A stretch of DNA of 64,000 bases from Algoriphagus sp. Y33. Its GTDB lineage: Bacteria > Bacteroidota > Bacteroidia > Cytophagales > Cyclobacteriaceae. Made by a program: the position numbers and the translations under genes. The notes below the pieces were generated by a model, which worked only from the letters and a program-made list of their open reading frames with translations, did not search any database and was not told the origin of the DNA. Positions 6,093 through 52,187 of the stretch are shown in pieces (positions within the stretch are counted from its first letter, which is position 1; each line of letters opens with the position of its first letter). The stretch spans positions 5,074,001-5,138,000 of the forward strand of contig NZ_CP061947.1 of assembly GCF_014838715.1 (NCBI RefSeq). The letters run 5' to 3'.

Positions 6093-7475
6093 TTATTCCG
6101 GAAGGAAAATAAGAAATTCGGTCCAGGAATCTTTTCCATTTTCCTTAGTGTTATTTTGACTGGTTACAGTCAGTTTTCCTCCATGTACTTTTATAATATC
6201 ATAGCTCAATGAAAGCCCCAAACCCGTTCCCAGTCCAGTTGGCTTAGTAGTGAAAAAAGGCTGGAAGATTTTGTCTTTAACCTCTTCAGGCATTCCTGTC
6301 CCATTGTCTTTCACCCTAATCTCAACACCTGTTGCAGTTCGTTTGGTACTTAACAATACCGTGGGTTTGTAGTCATCCACAAGCCCAGAATTTCCCAGTT
6401 CAGTCAACTGCCTTTTCTTTTCGGAAACTGCATAAAAGGCATTATTGACCAGATTCAAAATCACCCTTCCTATCTCTTGGGAAACGACATTTACCATGCC
6501 CACAGTCTCGTCAAAGTCAGTCTCCATACTTGCGTTGAAAGATTTGTCTTTGGCTCTAAGTCCATGGTAGGAGAGGCGAAGGTATTCATCTGCCAATTCA
6601 TTGATGTTAGTAGACTCTTTCACCCCAGTACTACTTCGACTATGCTGAAGCATTCCTTTCACGATAGCATCCGCCCGCTTTCCGTGATGGATAATCTTAT
6701 CTTCATTGCCTTCTAGGTCACTTACTATTAGCCTTATTTCTTCAAGATCCCCTTTTTCCAATTCAACTTTCAATTCTTCAAGAAGCTCTTTATTCAATTC
6801 AGAGAAATTGGTCACGAAATTCAGAGGGTTTTGTATTTCATGGGCAATACCTGCTGTGAGCTCGCCCAAAGAAGCCATTTTCTCGGATTGTATCAGTTGG
6901 GATTGGGTAGCTTTAAGTTCATAAAGTGTCTTCTCCAAGGCCTCTTTTTGAGCGGTAATTTCTGAAGTCCGTTCTGCCACCTGTATTTCCAACGCATCCT
7001 TTAATTTCTGCGATTGTTTGAATTGAAGTTCTTGCTGAGCAGCTTTTATTCGCTCTATTTCCAAAGCTTTCCGCTGCTTACGGTTGATTATAAGTTGTGC
7101 GATCAGCCATATCCAGGCAAATAACTCCGCTGTCTCAAACCACCCCTCATAGCTATCATAAAACTCAGGGGCAATTAATTCTATGAAATCCTGAAGAATA
7201 TAGGTTATCACCAAAGGCAAAAAGGTATACACGTACTGTTTCAGCGGAGAGAACACCTTTTGACTATATGACGCATATATTAGATATAAAATTGCTGCAT
7301 AGGATACCCACGTCAAGAAACTTTCTATGGCATGAAAGGACACCTGAACCAGCAACAGAACACATCCTGCTATTAGGCATTGAAGAAAAGTCTTCTGCCA
7401 CTCAGGATAAACCTTTTTCGTCTGCTCATGGGTTTGCAGATACCTAAAGGCAATAATCAGAAGTATATAATCCAT
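6093..7475 (-). CDS. Membrane sensor histidine kinase
   Basis: 460 residues from ATG 7475; an in-frame TTG at 7520 would add 15 residues, and the frame stays open further upstream without another usual start, so the N-terminus is uncertain. Four to five membrane helices fill the first 130 residues, followed by a long coiled coil (about 135-200). The H-box is GIAHEIQNPLNF with H212 as phospho-acceptor, then the N-box (NLVNNAFYA), G1 (DNGTGMP), F-box (FFTTKP) and G2 (GTGLGLSLSYDI), a complete HATPase_c domain. It heads a three-gene run with a lone receiver and a receiver-cyclase, the probable partners. No extracellular sensor domain is visible, so a signal sensed within the membrane is likely. 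Confidence 0.88.
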   Translation of the reverse strand: MDYILLIIAFRYLQTHEQTKKVYPEWQKTFLQCLIAGCVLLLVQVSFHAIESFLTWVSYAAILYLIYASYSQKVFSPLKQYVYTFLPLVITYILQDFIELIAPEFYDSYEGWFETAELFAWIWLIAQLIINRKQRKALEIERIKAAQQELQFKQSQKLKDALEIQVAERTSEITAQKEALEKTLYELKATQSQLIQSEKMASLGELTAGIAHEIQNPLNFVTNFSELNKELLEELKVELEKGDLEEIRLIVSDLEGNEDKIIHHGKRADAIVKGMLQHSRSSTGVKESTNINELADEYLRLSYHGLRAKDKSFNASMETDFDETVGMVNVVSQEIGRVILNLVNNAFYAVSEKKRQLTELGNSGLVDDYKPTVLLSTKRTATGVEIRVKDNGTGMPEEVKDKIFQPFFTTKPTGLGTGLGLSLSYDIIKVHGGKLTVTSQNNTKENGKDSWTEFLIFLPE

Positions 7476-7636
7476 GTAAACTGGGGTTGTATTAAAAACA
7501 AAGACATAAGTGCCAGGCAAAATAACAATAAATTCAGTAGTGAATACTTCTGAATACCCGGAATCAAAGCAGATTCGGACATCGATGAGTATAAGTGTTC
7601 TATTGCCTCTTACACGTGGGAAGCTTTAAGGTTTCA

Positions 7637-8956
7637 TTACCCAAGGGGATTTTCGTGCTCTTTATTGTGCTTTGAAAGCAGCTTAACTAAGTAGTAAATT
7701 AAAGTAAGTATCAGTATAAAAATAAGGATTCCTGTCTTCTCATAACCTGTTAGATTGGAAAGGAAAAATAGGATAATGCCTGCTGATAAAACGGGAACGG
7801 TATGTCCAAATGGAATTTTGAAATTCTCGGTAACCCCTTCATCCCTTTTCCTTAACTTGATTACAGCTAAGGCTACTCCAAAATATACCAAAAGCATACT
7901 TGCTGAAGCGATTACAGCCAACTGGCGAAAACCGCCAATAGCAGCTAGAGTAAAACCAATTCCTGAATAAAGTAAAATCGAGACATAAGGAGTTTTAAAT
8001 CTGGGATGGATAGCGGCCAATCTTTCCAAAGGAATAACCCGGTCGCTTGCCAAACCAAAGATCACTCTCGGCAGGTTCAAAATTTCTCCACTTAGCATAC
8101 CAAACATCGATACTCCTGCTCCGATCAATAAGAGTGTGTAGCCTATTGGGCCGAAAACTACGCTGGCAACGGAGGCTAAGGGAGCTTCCTTAAACTGCGG
8201 CAACTGGTCTCCCAGGACTCCCTGAGAAACAGTCTGGATTAGAATGTAGAGGATCAATACAGAAGATATGCCAATGAAAATAGCCTTGGGAACTGTCTTT
8301 TGCGGATTTTTGATTTCACCTCCCACAGTAAGTCCTGCGTCTCCACCCTGAAAAGCAAAGAATAATATCAGGGATGCCTCCCCAAAACTTGCAAATGAAG
8401 GAGCTGTATCCCAATATAAATTGGCAAGAGAAATATCTTCCCAGCTGAAAAATATCAGCAAAATCAAGGGGGTAAGTTTCGCAACAGTGTTGATTTTCAC
8501 CAATCCAATTCCTTGCCTGACTCCAATTACATTCAGTGAGCACAAGCCCCCAAAAATCAAAAACAAGAGGATAATCCGTATGAATTGAGTATTGAAAACC
8601 GGGAATGCCAACCCGATTAATTCTATTAATGCGTTTGCTACTGCCGCATCAGAAAAAGCACTGCCCATTACCATAAATACTGCAGCCAAAAACCCGGGAT
8701 AGGGACCAAAGGCAGTTTCCACGTAGGCATATCCTCCTCCTGAACGGGTTACTTTGCTTCCCGCTTCTGCGAAACACAGCATAACCATAGAAATCAAGAA
8801 TCCGCAGAATAGGTAAACAAAAATCCCCGAGGACCCCATGATTTCGGCCACTATTGCCGGCAACACGAAAATTCCTGCTCCAACAATGATATTGATGATA
8901 TTAGCCGAGAGCCCCAGCACACCTATTTCCCGCTTTAACCCCGTTTCTTTATCCAT
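7637..8956 (-). CDS. APC-family amino-acid permease
   Basis: 439 residues with about 12 predicted membrane helices. The first helix carries the APC substrate-binding break (IIVGAGIFVLP), and TRSGGGYAYVETAFGP in the third helix region is typical of the amino acid-polyamine-organocation superfamily. It should import (or exchange) amino acids across the inner membrane by a secondary mechanism; the specific amino acid cannot be read from the sequence. It begins 14 bases after the gamma-glutamyltransferase stop and is surely co-transcribed, which suggests uptake of amino acids freed from glutathione or other gamma-glutamyl peptides in the periplasm. Confidence 0.88.
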   Translation of the reverse strand: MDKETGLKREIGVLGLSANIINIIVGAGIFVLPAIVAEIMGSSGIFVYLFCGFLISMVMLCFAEAGSKVTRSGGGYAYVETAFGPYPGFLAAVFMVMGSAFSDAAVANALIELIGLAFPVFNTQFIRIILLFLIFGGLCSLNVIGVRQGIGLVKINTVAKLTPLILLIFFSWEDISLANLYWDTAPSFASFGEASLILFFAFQGGDAGLTVGGEIKNPQKTVPKAIFIGISSVLILYILIQTVSQGVLGDQLPQFKEAPLASVASVVFGPIGYTLLLIGAGVSMFGMLSGEILNLPRVIFGLASDRVIPLERLAAIHPRFKTPYVSILLYSGIGFTLAAIGGFRQLAVIASASMLLVYFGVALAVIKLRKRDEGVTENFKIPFGHTVPVLSAGIILFFLSNLTGYEKTGILIFILILTLIYYLVKLLSKHNKEHENPLG

Positions 8957-8970
8957 GGTAATTAGTAGCC

Positions 8971-10668
8971 TTAATAGCCTCTGGCACCGCCGTCTTCACT
9001 GGAAGAATCCGAAGCACCGGTGTAGAGCCTTTTGGAAGCATCGTAAGTAATGCCCATCAGTACGCCTATATTGGTAGTAGGCGCAAGCGTATGTCCCATT
9101 TTTTCCAGTGCCTCTCTGGTATCAGGTGATAGCAGATCACGTTCATACAGTATACGGTCAGGCAACCATTGATGATGGATTTTCATGGCTTCTATCGCCC
9201 GATCCACTCGCATATCATAGGCCAAAACATTCAGTACTGTCTGGAAAACCGTGTTGATAATAGTCCTTCCTCCCGGACTGCCTATTACCAGATAGGGTTT
9301 CCCGTCTTTTGCTACGATGGTCGGGGTCATACTGGATAGCATACGCTTTTCAGGTGCCACTAAGTTAGGATCTGACCCGATTTGTCCGGTTAAAGTCGTC
9401 TTGCCCGGCACAGGGTTGAAATCTCCCATTTCATTATTGAAAATAAAGCCCAGCCTCTCTGATCCCATTTTTACGCCATATGAGTTCTCTAACGTATAAG
9501 TCATTGAGATCGCGTTGCCCTCTTTGTCTACTATTGAAAAATGGGTGGTATTTTCGCCCCCATAAGGATGTCCAAATTTTGTAGGGTCGCTGACAGACGC
9601 CTTGTTCATATCAAGATTTTCAAATCGCTTCCTTGCAAACTCCTTCGAAAGCAACCTGTCTAAAGGCATATCAGGATTAAAATCAGGATCTCCCAAGAAC
9701 TCTGCCCTATCAGCAAAAGCTCTTCGCATTGCCTCTGCCACCAGATGAACATAGGCTGTAGAGTTGAATTCAATCTCTGAAATATTGGCTTCTTCCATAA
9801 GATTCATCATCTCGATCAAGGCAACACCGCCCGAACTTGGTGGAGGCATGGAGTAAATATCATATCCATTGAAAGTTCCTTTCAGAGGCTCCCGCTCCAC
9901 AGCTTCGTACTTTTCCAGATCCTCGCGTGTGATGATGCCACCATTGGCTTTCATATAGTCTTCGATTTCCTGCGCCACCCAGCCTTTGTAGAACCCATCT
10001 CTTCCATTCTTTTGGATTTCTTTTAGTGTTTTTGCCAGCGCAGACTGCTTCCAAGTTTCTCCCGGCTTTACGATCTCCCCATCTTTTCCCCTGAAGTAAT
10101 TCTTCATTATATCTTCGGAAGGATCCCGGTTTGTCATTCGCATAGCTGCATTGTAGAGACCATAGGACATTGTAAACCCCTTTTTTGCCAATTTCACTGA
10201 AGGTTTCACCAATTCCGACCAAGGAAGTTTTCCGTACTTCTGATGCGCTTGATATAACCCTGCGACGGTTCCGGGCACTCCTACGGCCAAAAGCCCTTTA
10301 TGATTTGAATTATCCTTTATTTCCCCCTTTTCATCCAGAAACATGGTTGGACTTGCTGCCAAAGGTGCTTTTTCACGAAAATCAAAAGTGGTTACCTCTC
10401 CATTTGATTTCATAAACACCAAAAAGCCTCCACCACCTATATTACCGGCTTCGGGATGAGTCACTTCCAACGCAAAAGCCGTTGCTACGGCAGCATCTAT
10501 AGCATTCCCCCCTTTTTTGAGGATATCCACACCTACCTGTGAGGCGATCACGTGGTCTGAGACTACCATTCCATTATCGGCGTAGGTCTGCGCTTTAGCC
10601 GAACTTATTATAACGAGTAGGAGTATTGAGCAGCTCAATGCTGCGTTTCTGACAAAATTATTTTCCAT
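8971..10668 (-). CDS. ggt: Gamma-glutamyltransferase precursor
   Basis: 565 residues, the usual family length. A signal peptide (residues 1-27, ending SSAKAQ) targets it to the periplasm. The autoprocessing site is in ENTTHFSIVD: cleavage before T374 would free that threonine as the N-terminal nucleophile of the small subunit. The substrate-binding PPPSSGG (275-281) and the oxyanion-loop motif GSPGGRTI near the C-terminus are present. It hydrolyses gamma-glutamyl bonds, as in glutathione, or transfers the glutamyl group to water or amino acids. The next gene, an amino-acid permease 14 bases downstream, probably takes up the products. ATG start at 10668. Confidence 0.95.
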   Translation of the reverse strand: MENNFVRNAALSCSILLLVIISSAKAQTYADNGMVVSDHVIASQVGVDILKKGGNAIDAAVATAFALEVTHPEAGNIGGGGFLVFMKSNGEVTTFDFREKAPLAASPTMFLDEKGEIKDNSNHKGLLAVGVPGTVAGLYQAHQKYGKLPWSELVKPSVKLAKKGFTMSYGLYNAAMRMTNRDPSEDIMKNYFRGKDGEIVKPGETWKQSALAKTLKEIQKNGRDGFYKGWVAQEIEDYMKANGGIITREDLEKYEAVEREPLKGTFNGYDIYSMPPPSSGGVALIEMMNLMEEANISEIEFNSTAYVHLVAEAMRRAFADRAEFLGDPDFNPDMPLDRLLSKEFARKRFENLDMNKASVSDPTKFGHPYGGENTTHFSIVDKEGNAISMTYTLENSYGVKMGSERLGFIFNNEMGDFNPVPGKTTLTGQIGSDPNLVAPEKRMLSSMTPTIVAKDGKPYLVIGSPGGRTIINTVFQTVLNVLAYDMRVDRAIEAMKIHHQWLPDRILYERDLLSPDTREALEKMGHTLAPTTNIGVLMGITYDASKRLYTGASDSSSEDGGARGY

Positions 10669-47147: not shown

Positions 47148-49076
47148 TTACTCTATCCCGTCCAGTTCACTTAATTCCAACCAAGTCAATTCCAATTCTT
47201 CCAACTCAGCATTGATTTCTCCCATGCGGTTGGATTGCTTGATCAATTCCTCATGATCATCTATTCCCGCAGAGATTTTTTCGGTAATAACAGATTTTTC
47301 CTTTTCCAGTTTGGCAATGGAAGCATTCACCTCCTTGAATTCTTGCTTTTGCTTAAAACTGGCTTTAGCCTTTGTAGGAGCCGAAACTTTGGCTTCAGCA
47401 TCTTGATTCTTGCTACTTGTTGCTTGTGTCTTTTCTTCTTGACTCTTGGTTCTGAATTCCTGACTCTTGGTTCTAGATTCTTGGCTCTTTTCTGTCTCGC
47501 GGAACTCAGAATAATTTCCCGGAAAATCACTGATCTCGCCTTCTCCTTCGAAGACAAACAAATGTTCCACCAAGCGATCCATGAAATACCTATCGTGGGA
47601 AACGATGATCAAACAGCCCGGGAAGGTATCCAAAAACTCTTCCAGCGTGTTCAGCGTCATCAAATCCAGGTCATTGGTCGGCTCATCCAGAATTAGGAAG
47701 TTTGGATTTTTGATCAGAACCATCAATAGCTGAAGTCTTCTACGCTCTCCTCCACTGAGTTTGGCGATTGGCGTATGCTGTTGCTTTGGGGGAAAGCCAA
47801 ATTGAGTCAGAAACTGGGATATGGTAATCGTAGCACCACCGGCGATCGTCACCACTTCTGCGACTTCCTTTACAATGTCAATCAGACGCTTTTCCTCATC
47901 AAAACTCCCTTCTTCCTGCTTGTAGTAACCAAAAGCTGTAGTCTGCCCGATAGCAACGGTTCCGGAATCAGGGGCAAGCTGACCCGTGATCATATTGAGG
48001 AAAGTAGTCTTTCCGGCACCATTTGGGCCTACTATTCCGATCCTGTCTTTCTTCTTAAAGGTGTAGGAGAAATCATTGACGATGGGCTTGTCTCCAAAAG
48101 ACTTTTGGAGCTTGTCGATTTCTATAATCTTATTACCAAGCCGCTGAGTAGTTACAGTCAACTGAATATCACGTTCTTCACGCTTTTGGGAGGCTTTTTC
48201 TTTGGTATCTTCGAAAGCATCCACGCGGTATTTTGCCTTGGTGCTTCTTGCTTTTGGCTGACGACGGATCCAATCCAGTTCCTTTTTGTATAGGCTTTTG
48301 GCTTTTTCGAGTTCTATATCTTCGATCTCCATTCGCTCCTCTTTCTTGTCAAGGAAGTAACCATAGTTCCCTTGGTAGCGATGTATTTTTCCCTGATCGA
48401 GTTCTAGGATTTCGTTGGTTACTTTTTCCAGGAAATAGCGGTCGTGAGTGACCATAAAAAGTGCAAGGTTGGCTTTCGCCAAATAGTCTTCCAGCCATTC
48501 AATGGTTTCCAGATCAAGGTGGTTGGTCGGCTCATCAAGTAGCAACAAATCAGGTTTTTCCAGAATCGCTTTTGCCAAGGCAACCCGCTTACGCTGCCCG
48601 CCGGAAAGTGTCCCTACAGGAAGATCTGTATCATGAAGCCCCAGTTTGCCGAGCACTTCTTTCACCTGATATTCAAAATCCCAAGCCTGGAACGCGTCCA
48701 TTTTCTCAAACAATACCGACATCTTATCAGAATTATCAATGCCCCGCTCTGCTTCCAGCATGGCTTTGTGATAGTCTTCGATCACCTTGAGCACTTCAGA
48801 ATTGCTTTGATCGAAAATGGTCTGGTAAATACTCATTGTCCCCTCAAAGACCGGGTTTTGGTGCACATAGGCCACTTTCACCTGTTGATTGGTTCCAACT
48901 TGACCTGTGTCAGGAATCTCCAAGCCCATGATTATTTTCATCAGGGTAGACTTGCCTGCGCCGTTGATGCCTACAAGGGCGATTTTCTGGCCTTGGGAAA
49001 TGCCAAAAGAGATATTGGAAAAAAGCTTGCGCTCACCGAACGCTTTACTGAGATTTTCGACCGAAAGGTAATTCAT
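47148..49076 (-). CDS. ABC-F family ATPase (Uup-like)
   Basis: 642 residues with two ABC ATPase domains and no membrane segment. Walker A motifs are GINGAGKST and GPNGAGKTT; the signatures are LSGGQRKRVALA and LSGGERRRLQLL; Walker B motifs are LLLLDEPTNHLDL and LILDEPTNDLDL. ABC-F proteins act on the ribosome (translation factor or quality control). A C-terminal coiled coil (about 590-642), as in Uup, may bind DNA or RNA. Between the second ATPase domain and the coiled coil is a low-complexity stretch (KSQESRTKSQEFRTKSQ and following) whose DNA matches the family A interspersed repeat. The promoter -7 element lies 4 bases before the ATG. Confidence 0.95.
   Translation of the reverse strand: MNYLSVENLSKAFGERKLFSNISFGISQGQKIALVGINGAGKSTLMKIIMGLEIPDTGQVGTNQQVKVAYVHQNPVFEGTMSIYQTIFDQSNSEVLKVIEDYHKAMLEAERGIDNSDKMSVLFEKMDAFQAWDFEYQVKEVLGKLGLHDTDLPVGTLSGGQRKRVALAKAILEKPDLLLLDEPTNHLDLETIEWLEDYLAKANLALFMVTHDRYFLEKVTNEILELDQGKIHRYQGNYGYFLDKKEERMEIEDIELEKAKSLYKKELDWIRRQPKARSTKAKYRVDAFEDTKEKASQKREERDIQLTVTTQRLGNKIIEIDKLQKSFGDKPIVNDFSYTFKKKDRIGIVGPNGAGKTTFLNMITGQLAPDSGTVAIGQTTAFGYYKQEEGSFDEEKRLIDIVKEVAEVVTIAGGATITISQFLTQFGFPPKQQHTPIAKLSGGERRRLQLLMVLIKNPNFLILDEPTNDLDLMTLNTLEEFLDTFPGCLIIVSHDRYFMDRLVEHLFVFEGEGEISDFPGNYSEFRETEKSQESRTKSQEFRTKSQEEKTQATSSKNQDAEAKVSAPTKAKASFKQKQEFKEVNASIAKLEKEKSVITEKISAGIDDHEELIKQSNRMGEINAELEELELTWLELSELDGIE
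47398..47495 (-). repeat. Family A repeat captured in the ABC-F coding sequence
   Basis: Read on the minus strand, the segment contains AGTAGCAAGAATCAAGATG, which differs by one base from AGTAGCAAGTATCAAGATG at 52725-52743, and AGAATCTAGAACCAAGAG, close to GATTCTAGAACCTAGAG in the same intergenic copy. It is in frame and codes the K/S/Q/E/T-rich linker. Confidence 0.6.
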
Positions 49077-49343: not shown

Positions 49344-50546
49344 TTACCTTTGTACTTTAGAAACAGAAGAAAGGTCATTTCGAAGCTTCAATGAAACCAA
49401 TACAGTTTGGTCATTCATCAATTCCTCCTTATTCTTTTGAAAAAAATCATGGATGTTATCTGGCTCGATTTCTACCTTTTCCCCAGCAAATTTATTAGCA
49501 TAGTCATTATAAAAATCAATAGAATTAATACTATAAATCACTTGATCATTGTAGTATGTCCATGGGATATTTCTGATCCGCATTTCATCTATATCGTTTT
49601 CAAAACCAGAAACTTGGGACAAAATATTGAATTCTTTATCTAATAAGATAAAATGTATGCCCTTATTATATTGGTATAAAGACATAAAATATAAATCTCC
49701 CAATGCAGTAAACATTGAAATGTGTTCCACTAGCTGATTTTCCCTGATGAAATTTTGGTAAGTATCTCTATCAACACTATTTAATCTAATAAAATCCAAT
49801 TCATTTACACCCTGTAACCCTAAATCAAATTCCAAACGCTGTTTGAATTTTAACTTCTCGTCGAAAAAAACAACTTGGCTTGTATAAGGAATAGGAAAAA
49901 CAAATCCTCCCTCAAAACCGGGACTGAAACCATTACGGACCCCAAACTGAAATTTGTCGAACCCTAGTCTGATTTCGATTGCTTCTTCAATAAGTTCCTT
50001 TCCCTCAAATACTAGAAAATTGTAATCTGATCCGTCCCTAATATTGTTCATAAAAAACAAGGTTCTTCCACTTCTCGCAATAAATGAAGAGGCATTTTTT
50101 GGAATTTTTTCCTCTGTTAATAGTGATTGGACAGTGTCAAATGACACTATCTTCCTCAGACTTCTATCTAAAATTAAAAGAGTGTCTTCCCTAACCTGAA
50201 AAACTTCCACTTGTTGGTATTCTCCTGGTCCTTGACCGTTGGCTTTAAATATAAAATCAATATTTCCAAATCTGTCAAACCTGTGTACATTGCTGTTAAA
50301 ATAATCTTGTACGTAAATAAACTTGTCATTTATATGAATTTGATAGGGCTCTACCAAAGGATTAGCATCATCACTTTTTAATAAAGTATAACTTATCCCT
50401 TTGAATATGTCCGATAACTTCTGTTGGGTGGAATTGTCCAAATCAATTTTTATCACTCTCTCATTTACAATACTTTTTTTGGAGGATTGCTTACATGACA
50501 AAAGAGTAAAAAAAACAAGAAAGTAAAGTATAGTTGTTTTGCCCAT
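49344..50546 (-). CDS. 6-bladed beta-propeller lipoprotein
   Basis: 400 residues. Lipoprotein signal with lipobox LLSC (Cys about residue 18). The body has the NHL-like propeller pattern of the Bacteroidota 6-bladed beta-propeller family: IQVQDYFNSNVHRFDRFGNI (read as FIYVQDYFNSNVHRFDRFG) and GQGPGEYQQVEVFQV, the GxGPGEY motif being its hallmark. It is anchored in the periplasm or at the surface and presumably binds a ligand. A small peptide-like ORF (50592-50810) lies upstream in the same orientation, with a strong hairpin between them, an arrangement known for this family next to NVEALA-type peptides. Confidence 0.85.
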   Translation of the reverse strand: MGKTTILYFLVFFTLLSCKQSSKKSIVNERVIKIDLDNSTQQKLSDIFKGISYTLLKSDDANPLVEPYQIHINDKFIYVQDYFNSNVHRFDRFGNIDFIFKANGQGPGEYQQVEVFQVREDTLLILDRSLRKIVSFDTVQSLLTEEKIPKNASSFIARSGRTLFFMNNIRDGSDYNFLVFEGKELIEEAIEIRLGFDKFQFGVRNGFSPGFEGGFVFPIPYTSQVVFFDEKLKFKQRLEFDLGLQGVNELDFIRLNSVDRDTYQNFIRENQLVEHISMFTALGDLYFMSLYQYNKGIHFILLDKEFNILSQVSGFENDIDEMRIRNIPWTYYNDQVIYSINSIDFYNDYANKFAGEKVEIEPDNIHDFFQKNKEELMNDQTVLVSLKLRNDLSSVSKVQR

Positions 50547-50559
50547 TATTCTGTGTTAT

Positions 50560-50584
50560 AGCTGCCTGTCTTCCACAGGCAGCT
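50560..50584 (-). promoter_or_regulatory. Perfect intercistronic hairpin between peptide ORF and propeller gene
   Basis: AGCTGCCTGT (50560-50569) and ACAGGCAGCT (50575-50584) form a perfect 10-pair GC-rich stem with a 5-base loop, 13 bases before the propeller ATG on the minus strand. There is no T-run after it, so attenuation, processing or stability control is likelier than simple termination. Confidence 0.65.
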
Positions 50585-50591
50585 TACCTAA

Positions 50592-50810
50592 TTACCCTAT
50601 TGTTCCAACTTCATCGCAATGCTTTTGACCTGATACATCACAAGTTTGGGAGCCATCAAATCTACAGCGTGTTACACTTCCCCCTCCAGTGCAATCAATC
50701 GTTTGTATCCAATAACTTCCACTTGCTGGAGTCTGTGTAATTGGAGTGAATGATAAAGTCATCATGCCAACGATTCCTATTCCTAAAATTACTTTTTTCG
50801 TGGTTTTAAA
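50592..50810 (-). pseudogene. Small exported cysteine-containing peptide, start codon lost or frameshifted
   Basis: On the minus strand the frame reads FKTTKKVILGIGIVGMMTL, a signal-like N-terminus, then 53 residues with four cysteines in IDC, TRC, QTC and KHC, stopping at 50592. There is no ATG, GTG or TTG before the first in-frame stop upstream; the codon where a start is expected (50808-50810) is TTT. An internal ATG at 50765 would give 57 residues but lose most of the signal peptide. A one-base change in the T-run at about 50808-50811 would join it to a TTG a few bases upstream. It resembles the small NVEALA-type peptides that precede propeller genes, by layout rather than by a clear motif. 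Confidence 0.5.
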
Positions 50811-50829
50811 ATTTCAATTTTTTAACTAC

Positions 50830-50843
50830 CTCTTGGCCAAGAG
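50830..50843. promoter_or_regulatory. Perfect 14-base palindrome upstream of the peptide/propeller pair
   Basis: CTCTTGGCCAAGAG is fully self-complementary and lies 20 bases before the expected start of the peptide frame on the minus strand. It is a candidate operator. Confidence 0.45.
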
Positions 50844-51029
50844 CGACTAACCGACTGATTAGCTAGCCGTAACATATTATTATTATTTCAATCCAAATCT
50901 TTAAAACGAAAAAATCGTCAGTTCACTAAAAACACCCTGTATAGGGTATGCAAAATCGGACACTTTATAATTATTCCCAGAACCCATGGAAATTACCTAA
51001 TTAGAATTTCACCAAATTCTACTTTCAAG

Positions 51030-51119: not shown

Positions 51120-52187
51120 ATGGAAGCAATTCAGAAAAAAGACATCCGTAAGCTATCCCTTTCCCAGTTGGAAGAATTCTTTTTGGCTCATGGGGAAAAG
51201 AAATTCCGCGCCAAACAGGTATATGAATGGCTGTGGAATAAGTCTCTGAAGAACTTTGATGAGATGAGCAATATCTCGCTGAGTACACGGGAAATGCTCA
51301 AAGCGCATTTTGAGATCAACCATATCCGTGTGGATCTGATGCAGCATTCCTCTGATGGGACGATCAAGAATGCGGTAAAGCTCTATGATAACAAGATCGT
51401 AGAGTCAGTTCTGATACCCACGACAAAGCGGATTACTGCCTGTGTTTCCTCTCAGGTGGGTTGCAGCCTGGATTGTAATTTCTGCGCCACGGCACGATTG
51501 AAGCGCATGCGTAACCTGAACCCAGACGAGATCTACGATCAGGTGGTGGCGATCAAAGATGAAGCGGAAACCTATTTTCAGCGTCCACTGACCAATATTG
51601 TTTTTATGGGAATGGGAGAACCGCTCCTGAACTATGCCAATGTGCTGGAAGCAATAGATAAGATCACCTCACCCGAAGGGCTGGGAATGGCACCCCGAAG
51701 AATCACTGTTTCTACCGTAGGCGTGACTAAAATGATCCGTAAACTCGCAGATGATGAAGTTCGCTTCAACTTGGCGGTATCGCTTCACTCAGCCATCAAT
51801 GAAACCCGTTCACGCTTGATGCCTATCAACGACAGTAATCCCGTGGAAGAACTGGGGGAATCTCTAAAATACTGGTACGAAAAGACCAAACGGAAAGTCA
51901 CCTACGAATATGTGATTTGGGATGGGATCAATGACGACGAGAGACATGCCCGTGCGCTGGCAAAATTCTGCAAGATCATCCCTTCCAAAGTCAATCTGAT
52001 CCAATATAATCCAATAGACGAGGGAGAATTCCGACAGGCTAAGCAAGAAGCCGTGGACATGTATGTACGGGTATTGGAGTCACAGGGAATCATAGCCAAA
52101 GTAAGAAAATCCCGTGGCCAGGATATCGATGCAGCCTGTGGACAATTGGCCAATAAAAACGAAGTGGCTGAACTGAATACCGCCTGA
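51120..52187 (+). CDS. rlmN: Dual-specificity RNA methyltransferase RlmN
   Basis: 355 residues, the family length. A radical SAM enzyme that methylates C2 of A2503 in 23S rRNA and A37 in some tRNAs. The CxxxCxxC cluster motif is CSLDCNFCATA. VFMGMGEPLLNY and RRITVSTVG are typical, and the catalytic cysteines are C in the VSSQVGC segment region and the C-terminal RGQDIDAACGQL, where the cysteine forms the methylated intermediate. The N-terminal helical domain (KFRAKQVYEWLWNK) binds RNA. It is a single gene with a promoter so close to ATG that the message is probably leaderless. Confidence 0.97.
   Translation: MEAIQKKDIRKLSLSQLEEFFLAHGEKKFRAKQVYEWLWNKSLKNFDEMSNISLSTREMLKAHFEINHIRVDLMQHSSDGTIKNAVKLYDNKIVESVLIPTTKRITACVSSQVGCSLDCNFCATARLKRMRNLNPDEIYDQVVAIKDEAETYFQRPLTNIVFMGMGEPLLNYANVLEAIDKITSPEGLGMAPRRITVSTVGVTKMIRKLADDEVRFNLAVSLHSAINETRSRLMPINDSNPVEELGESLKYWYEKTKRKVTYEYVIWDGINDDERHARALAKFCKIIPSKVNLIQYNPIDEGEFRQAKQEAVDMYVRVLESQGIIAKVRKSRGQDIDAACGQLANKNEVAELNTA

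Follow-up and report, generated by a model that had tools for sequence, protein, structure and literature searches.

The peptide and propeller genes on the minus strand of the window (the whole 64-kb stretch of Algoriphagus sp. Y33 DNA analysed here) may be read as one of a family of exchangeable two-gene peptide-propeller cassettes, in which the propeller would act as the cognate binding or immunity partner of its peptide; we put the probability of this reading at roughly one half. The units have the order of a ~110-nt header (TAA repeat, TATGTT, two hairpins, start codon and the first ~7–9 codons), a peptide gene, a hairpin and a class-matched propeller gene, and most of them occupy a single chromosomal gap, which is empty in the majority of relatives examined. 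The mutated peptide start beside an intact partner in the window suggests a paired poison-antidote or signal-receptor system. The features of the locus are:

51120..52187, plus strand: ORF that we take to be rlmN from its sequence, the divergent neighbour and one edge of the cassette site
50934..50947, minus strand: inverted repeat ACCCT-ATAC-AGGGT, spotted by eye upstream of the promoter region
50894..50897, minus strand: TTTG, candidate -33 element; TTTG or TTG lies directly 5' of the TAA repeat in most leaders
50877..50885, minus strand: (TAA)3 repeat; in 22 of 23 leaders the repeat has 3 to 22 units
50871..50876, minus strand: TATGTT, candidate -7 element, kept in most leaders
50846..50863, minus strand: leader hairpin 1, seven pairs and a 4-nt loop; two-sided changes in six of the seven pairs among 22 distinct leaders
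50830..50843, minus strand: leader hairpin 2, the 14-base palindrome; two-sided changes in three of five pairs
50801-50799, minus strand: ACG in place of the ATG start; the aligned codon in Algoriphagus sp. AGSA1 is ATG
50592..50801, minus strand: class A peptide frame, 69 codons from the ACG plus stop, four Cys
50560..50584, minus strand: intergenic hairpin in the peptide-propeller gap, ten perfect pairs
49344..50546, minus strand: propeller lipoprotein gene, PF17170, intact, 400 aa (ORF, profile and model)
47148..49076, minus strand: ABC-F gene (ORF), the other edge of the cassette site

The peptide and propeller genes of the window

The preliminary description had reported a start-less frame of 72 codons with a signal-like N-terminus and four cysteines; the N-terminus and the cysteines stand, and the frame counts 73 sense codons. 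It opens after an in-frame TGA (50816-50814), and the first ATG, GTG or TTG within it is the internal ATG at 50765. The AGSA1 ortholog, which begins with ATG, bears out that the start was lost, but the ATT, ATA or internal ATG that had been proposed as substitutes are rejected, because the ATG of the ortholog aligns with the ACG at 50801-50799. A start at 50765 is disfavoured also because the basic N-terminus of the Sec-type signal carried by the window peptide would be dropped. The AGSA1 peptide is 81% identical to that of the window, retains all four cysteines and precedes a propeller 71% identical to the window propeller, so that a homologous peptide does stand before an orthologous propeller, contrary to the refuting condition set in the preliminary description. 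Simple counting against AGSA1 gave a dN/dS of about 0.17 over the peptide frame as a whole and 0.12 over the mature region, while the propeller stands at 0.10 (dS 1.7, near saturation); these values indicate purifying selection on both genes. Together with the four intact cysteines, the dN/dS implies either that the start was lost recently or that the ACG works, and a value of 0.17 would equally fit a peptide still made from the ACG. The ACG has an A at -3, a base that favours initiation in Flavobacterium johnsoniae (PMC6847099). Given the change from ATG to ACG, the window peptide is probably silent or only weakly made, with its partner kept.

In Bacteroidota, NVEALA peptides (PF14055) adjoin propeller genes, and the window locus resembles them in that a small peptide of exported type is encoded immediately ahead of a propeller lipoprotein. 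It differs in that none of the classes tested matches NVEALA; the core common to the peptides described here is C..[RK]C..C.VS.Q..C. The suggestion of an NVEALA-type peptide was thus abandoned: no NVEALA match at E<=1 was obtained for the window peptide or for seven class representatives, and among 72 genus genomes none scored above the 27-bit cut-off of PF14055 (best E 0.0036). Nor did the window peptide match TIGR04149 (cut-off 25 bits) at E<=1. Searches of Pfam (window peptide and classes A–G) and NCBIfam (window peptide and classes A–E) returned nothing above family cut-offs; sub-threshold matches, such as AimP (15.4 of 35 bits), were judged signal-peptide noise, and the single PDB match of the class A profile (E 0.24) was judged chance.

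The assignment of 49344-50546 to a six-bladed propeller lipoprotein agrees with a PF17170 '6-bladed beta-propeller' match of 104.1 bits (cut-off 22.9) over residues 27-339, the number of blades being that of the family name and not a count on the model. The predicted model (pLDDT 88, pTM 0.84) matches solved propellers, the closest being Bacteroides fragilis BF0058 (4raa; TM 0.67, E 1.9e-16), which is only 15% identical to the window propeller. BF0058 and BVU_1028 (3s9j), solved members of PF17170 (DUF5128) and PF13970 (DUF4221), belong to the same propeller families as the cassette propellers, and their listings give no function. The lipobox-like Cys of the window propeller is invariant across 19 aligned propellers, and its named relatives are from Algoriphagus (three loci). 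Literature searches on NVEALA, DUF5128 and related topics found neither such peptide-propeller pairs nor a role attributed to them.

The 10-pair hairpin at 50584-50560 proved perfect, as described; it is one of two perfect 10-bp hairpins (loop 3–8) in the window, and its RNA fold reaches -19.1 kcal/mol (z -4.2).

A structured leader behind a TAA repeat

The 14-base palindrome CTCTTGGCCAAGAG (minus strand, 50843-50830) is likewise perfect, and no other perfect palindrome of that length or longer occurs in the 64 kb. It is not the stand-alone feature of the preliminary description: a conserved leader follows a (TAA)n repeat and contains two covarying hairpins side by side, of which the palindrome is the second. 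A block in the upstream DNA of four species is better conserved than its flanks, and a covariance model built from seven leaders retrieved 21 copies, spread over 15 of the 72 genus genomes, the same 21 as a second model; two further leaders were found in two other genera (sample of 390 family genomes). In an order-wide sample containing few family genomes, leaders occurred in 7 of 390 genomes, all of them genus members, so that rare copies may exist elsewhere. A search of the whole window against Rfam gave no match, and the leader corresponds to no known RNA family at gathering score.

In an alignment of 22 distinct leaders fitted to the covariance model, pairing holds in 96.2% of cells and two-sided changes occur at 9 of the 12 pairs; none of 500 shuffles reached either the paired percentage or the covariation score, and 3 of 500 reached the number of two-sided pairs. 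A seven-row MAFFT alignment that was not model-fitted gave 25 of 500 shuffles reaching the score and 268 of 500 reaching the two-sided pair number. Of nine leaders folded singly, one exceeds its shuffles (HL-49, z -3.9) and the others lie between z +0.7 and -1.3. The two inverted repeats could be DNA operators instead of RNA hairpins, since palindromic operators also covary and hairpin 2 is a perfect palindrome in the window. This is unlikely, however, because G-U pairs are frequent (nine sequences at each of three pairs), which favours RNA over a DNA operator; the 4-nt loop of hairpin 1 and a UUCG loop in G001 also speak for RNA hairpins. A candidate operator could lie further upstream in the inverted repeat ACCCT-ATAC-AGGGT, and similar inverted repeats were seen by eye before some other leaders (for example, G053 and G069). 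Separately, at L066 and L067 (G009 and G008) a terminator-like T-run follows hairpin 2.

The TAA tract lies directly upstream in 22 of the 23 leaders and falls inside a putative promoter spacer, with TTTG and TATGTT as candidate promoter elements. The B and D paralogs of G025 have an identical leader with 3 and 10 TAA units, respectively; variation in unit number was observed between paralogs and species only. The arrangement resembles the phase-variable nadA of Neisseria, which has a simple repeat of varying copy number in the promoter region (PMC2791445). It differs in that the units here are TAA, placed between TTTG and TATGTT, with variation confined to paralogs and species.

Cassette classes, their chromosomal site and their headers

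Each of the 23 leaders is followed by a small Cys-rich ORF of exported-peptide type and then by a propeller gene, with two exceptions: in the G025_F unit both peptide and propeller are broken, and in G184 the two genes are separated by an ORF that is presumably transposase-like. At this G184 locus (L076, around 8216), transposase-like ORFs were noted in two places, immediately ahead of the leader and in the gap that separates the peptide from its propeller. Hairpins were found in all 20 peptide-propeller gaps folded (z -1.8 to -6.5; long gaps taken to 150 nt, two further gaps not parsed). The peptides were sorted by eye into seven classes, A to G, with the window in class A; class E may comprise two classes, as G022 and G003 differ from its other members. 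Among class representatives, the propellers of B, D and E belong to PF17170, as does that of the window, and those of C, F and G to PF13970. Class C units (L059 in AGSA1, about 6657-9573; L058, L076 and L077) contain two further lipoproteins, a small one with a CxxC-like motif and one that is again propeller-like, both lacking a Pfam match; these extra lipoproteins are possibly a disulfide helper.

Twelve of the 15 leader-bearing genomes of the genus have a cassette flanked by def or rlmN on one side and the ABC-F gene on the other (in ten of them on a single contig; for G025 and G003 this was inferred over contig breaks); in relatives, rlmN adjoins ABC-F or def. Cassettes elsewhere are those of G008, G009 and G045 and the G025_F unit. 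A second home, behind a gene that we take to be tsf-like, was seen in G009 (L066) and G008 (L067), both with class F peptides. Among 40 further ABC-F loci (G003, G008, G009 and G045 included, 14 additional ABC-F genomes left out), 33 had no cassette and a neighbouring gene within 68-317 bp, four had a leaderless propeller, two had other genes and one was too short. The ABC-F gene was matched at E<=1e-150 in 65 genus genomes, once in each of 64 and split into three in G039. A tRNA-type insertion site was ruled out, there being no tRNA within the window. Tandem cassettes occur in G001 (four) and AGSA1 (two). A clean deletion from an AGSA1-like double to the single cassette of the window is only partly right, as the window header is a patchwork of the A-type and C-type headers of AGSA1.

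The type of propeller goes with the class of the peptide. Median propeller identity was 0.54 within a class between genomes (32 pairs), 0.26 between classes in different genomes (191 pairs) and 0.25 between classes within one genome (8 pairs), and the observed mean was reached by none of 5,000 permutations of class labels that had been assigned by eye beforehand (22 of the 23 cassettes, G025_F being dropped for its broken propeller). Partner type thus tracks peptide class, the co-inheritance looked for in a toxin-immunity pair. Leaders follow the host genome, on eight pairs: leader identity was 0.63 within a class between genomes, 0.61 between classes in different genomes and 0.97 across classes within a genome, the eight same-genome pairs coming from three genomes (six from G001, one each from G025, 1.00, and AGSA1, 0.75). 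In four of the five G001 comparisons, the block held in common begins at the TAA repeat and ends near codon 7-9; in the B-E pair it reaches 468 bp further upstream (part of the upstream sequence of G001_C was masked).

It is very unlikely that the likeness of headers within a genome merely marks the units as recent duplicates. The tandem layout in G001 and AGSA1 and the additional 468 bp of the B-E pair, which no other pair shares, would fit duplication, but the cargo of tandem units is only 0.22-0.40 identical, against 0.48-0.62 to other-genome counterparts (classes B, C and D), which implies that the units are old. That old classes carry almost the same header in one genome points to recombination or gene conversion at the ~110-nt header, which would keep the headers alike.

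The pairing extends beyond the leader-bearing cassettes. A profile from nine diverse peptides with the common core matched 22 of 196 family genomes in 13 genera, and at 30 loci of peptide relatives (one listed match had no locus; two overlap profile members or their orthologs) a propeller stands just downstream in 27 and upstream in 6. None is in reach at L181, L192 and L195, and the peptides of L181 and L192 look whole. Within the genus, eight of nine leaderless relatives precede a propeller (L036 does not). In a phylum-wide sample with few family genomes, the peptide family was present in 3 of 395 genomes, all of the genus. In the genome of the window itself, small Cys-rich ORFs precede the propellers L002, L003 and L004 and not L005, L006 and L008; a further propeller gene (L006/L007, G000:C1:2320411-2321312) is broken by stops. 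The peptide before L002 (G000:C1:1979620-1980330) is a four-Cys GG-leader peptide like TIGR04149 (20 bits, cut-off 25), unlike the window peptide with its Sec-type signal and no match, and propellers may therefore also pair with peptides exported by another route.

Peptide decay and the role of the pair

Five of the 23 peptides carry a lesion or a near-cognate start: that of the window (ACG start, otherwise intact), G013 (ATA start and one Cys lost), G053 (CTG start, body intact), G003 (frameshift) and G025_F (nonsense, with the propeller broken too). All but the last retain an open propeller frame, and between G003 and G022 the propeller dN/dS is 0.13. This asymmetry could mean that a costly secreted factor is lost and its partner kept, that near-cognate starts work, or that the events are recent. 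The window peptide might also be a plain dead gene, with neighbouring features that have no present role, as its ACG start and the decay of related copies (G003, G025_F and G013) would allow. We regard this as possible, if doubtful, given an intact frame with all four cysteines, the low dN/dS of the peptide, above all in its mature part, and the strong constraint on the propeller.

Under the cassette reading, a promoter whose spacing is tuned by TAA copy number would drive a peptide mRNA stabilised by the 5' hairpins, and the intergenic 3' hairpin would trim or attenuate this mRNA by partial termination, with read-through to the propeller gene. The peptide would be exported through Sec and then disulfide-bonded, and the lipidated propeller would bind its own peptide class at the cell envelope, in a cognate binding or immunity role. 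Recombination or gene conversion, by keeping headers within a genome alike, would allow peptide and partner pairs to be gained, lost and exchanged. We know of no precedent for a propeller as an immunity protein.

A secreted self or kin signal with a surface receptor is a somewhat unlikely alternative, in which classes would be communication groups and peptide loss would leave listeners that do not speak; class coupling and the decay asymmetry fit it as well as they fit immunity, but the cassette listings, inspected by eye, contain no constant signalling gene, and to our knowledge no downstream pathway is known. Less likely still, the propeller could have an ordinary envelope function such as uptake, with the peptide as its subunit, cofactor or folding partner. 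Tight pairing across 13 genera would suit such a subunit, and the fold matches include the BtuG propeller lipoproteins of Bacteroides, which are reported to bind vitamin B12 at the surface (PMC6143338). However, a needed subunit should not vanish alone, as the open propeller frames in four of the five lesion cases would require, and presence-absence at the site does not suggest a housekeeping role. Our order of preference is binding or immunity, then signalling, then an ordinary envelope subunit.

The cassettes resemble CDI toxin-immunity cassettes (PMC3150448) in a conserved leading part with variable, partner-matched cargo, in presence-absence at a single site and in the retention of the partner when the effector is damaged. 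They differ in that the cargo here is a Cys peptide of ~40 aa, a putative toxin, each with its own leader, and that the partner is a lipidated propeller. Taken further, and only tentatively, Bacteroidota would have in these peptides a new class of secreted, polymorphic Cys-peptide weapons (or kin signals), with lipidated propellers as immunity proteins or receptors, mainly one slot, a repeat-tuned promoter and a recombination-homogenised structured leader, and the window strain would be silent for the peptide and keep the partner.

Propeller lipoproteins with adjoining small peptide genes recur in Cyclobacteriaceae, and the locus offers a small testable set of seven peptide classes with class-matched propellers, empty-site relatives and natural peptide-defective variants, together with a leader that predicts where the transcript begins. 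An unexplained annotation pattern is thereby turned into a direct test of binding, protection or signalling.
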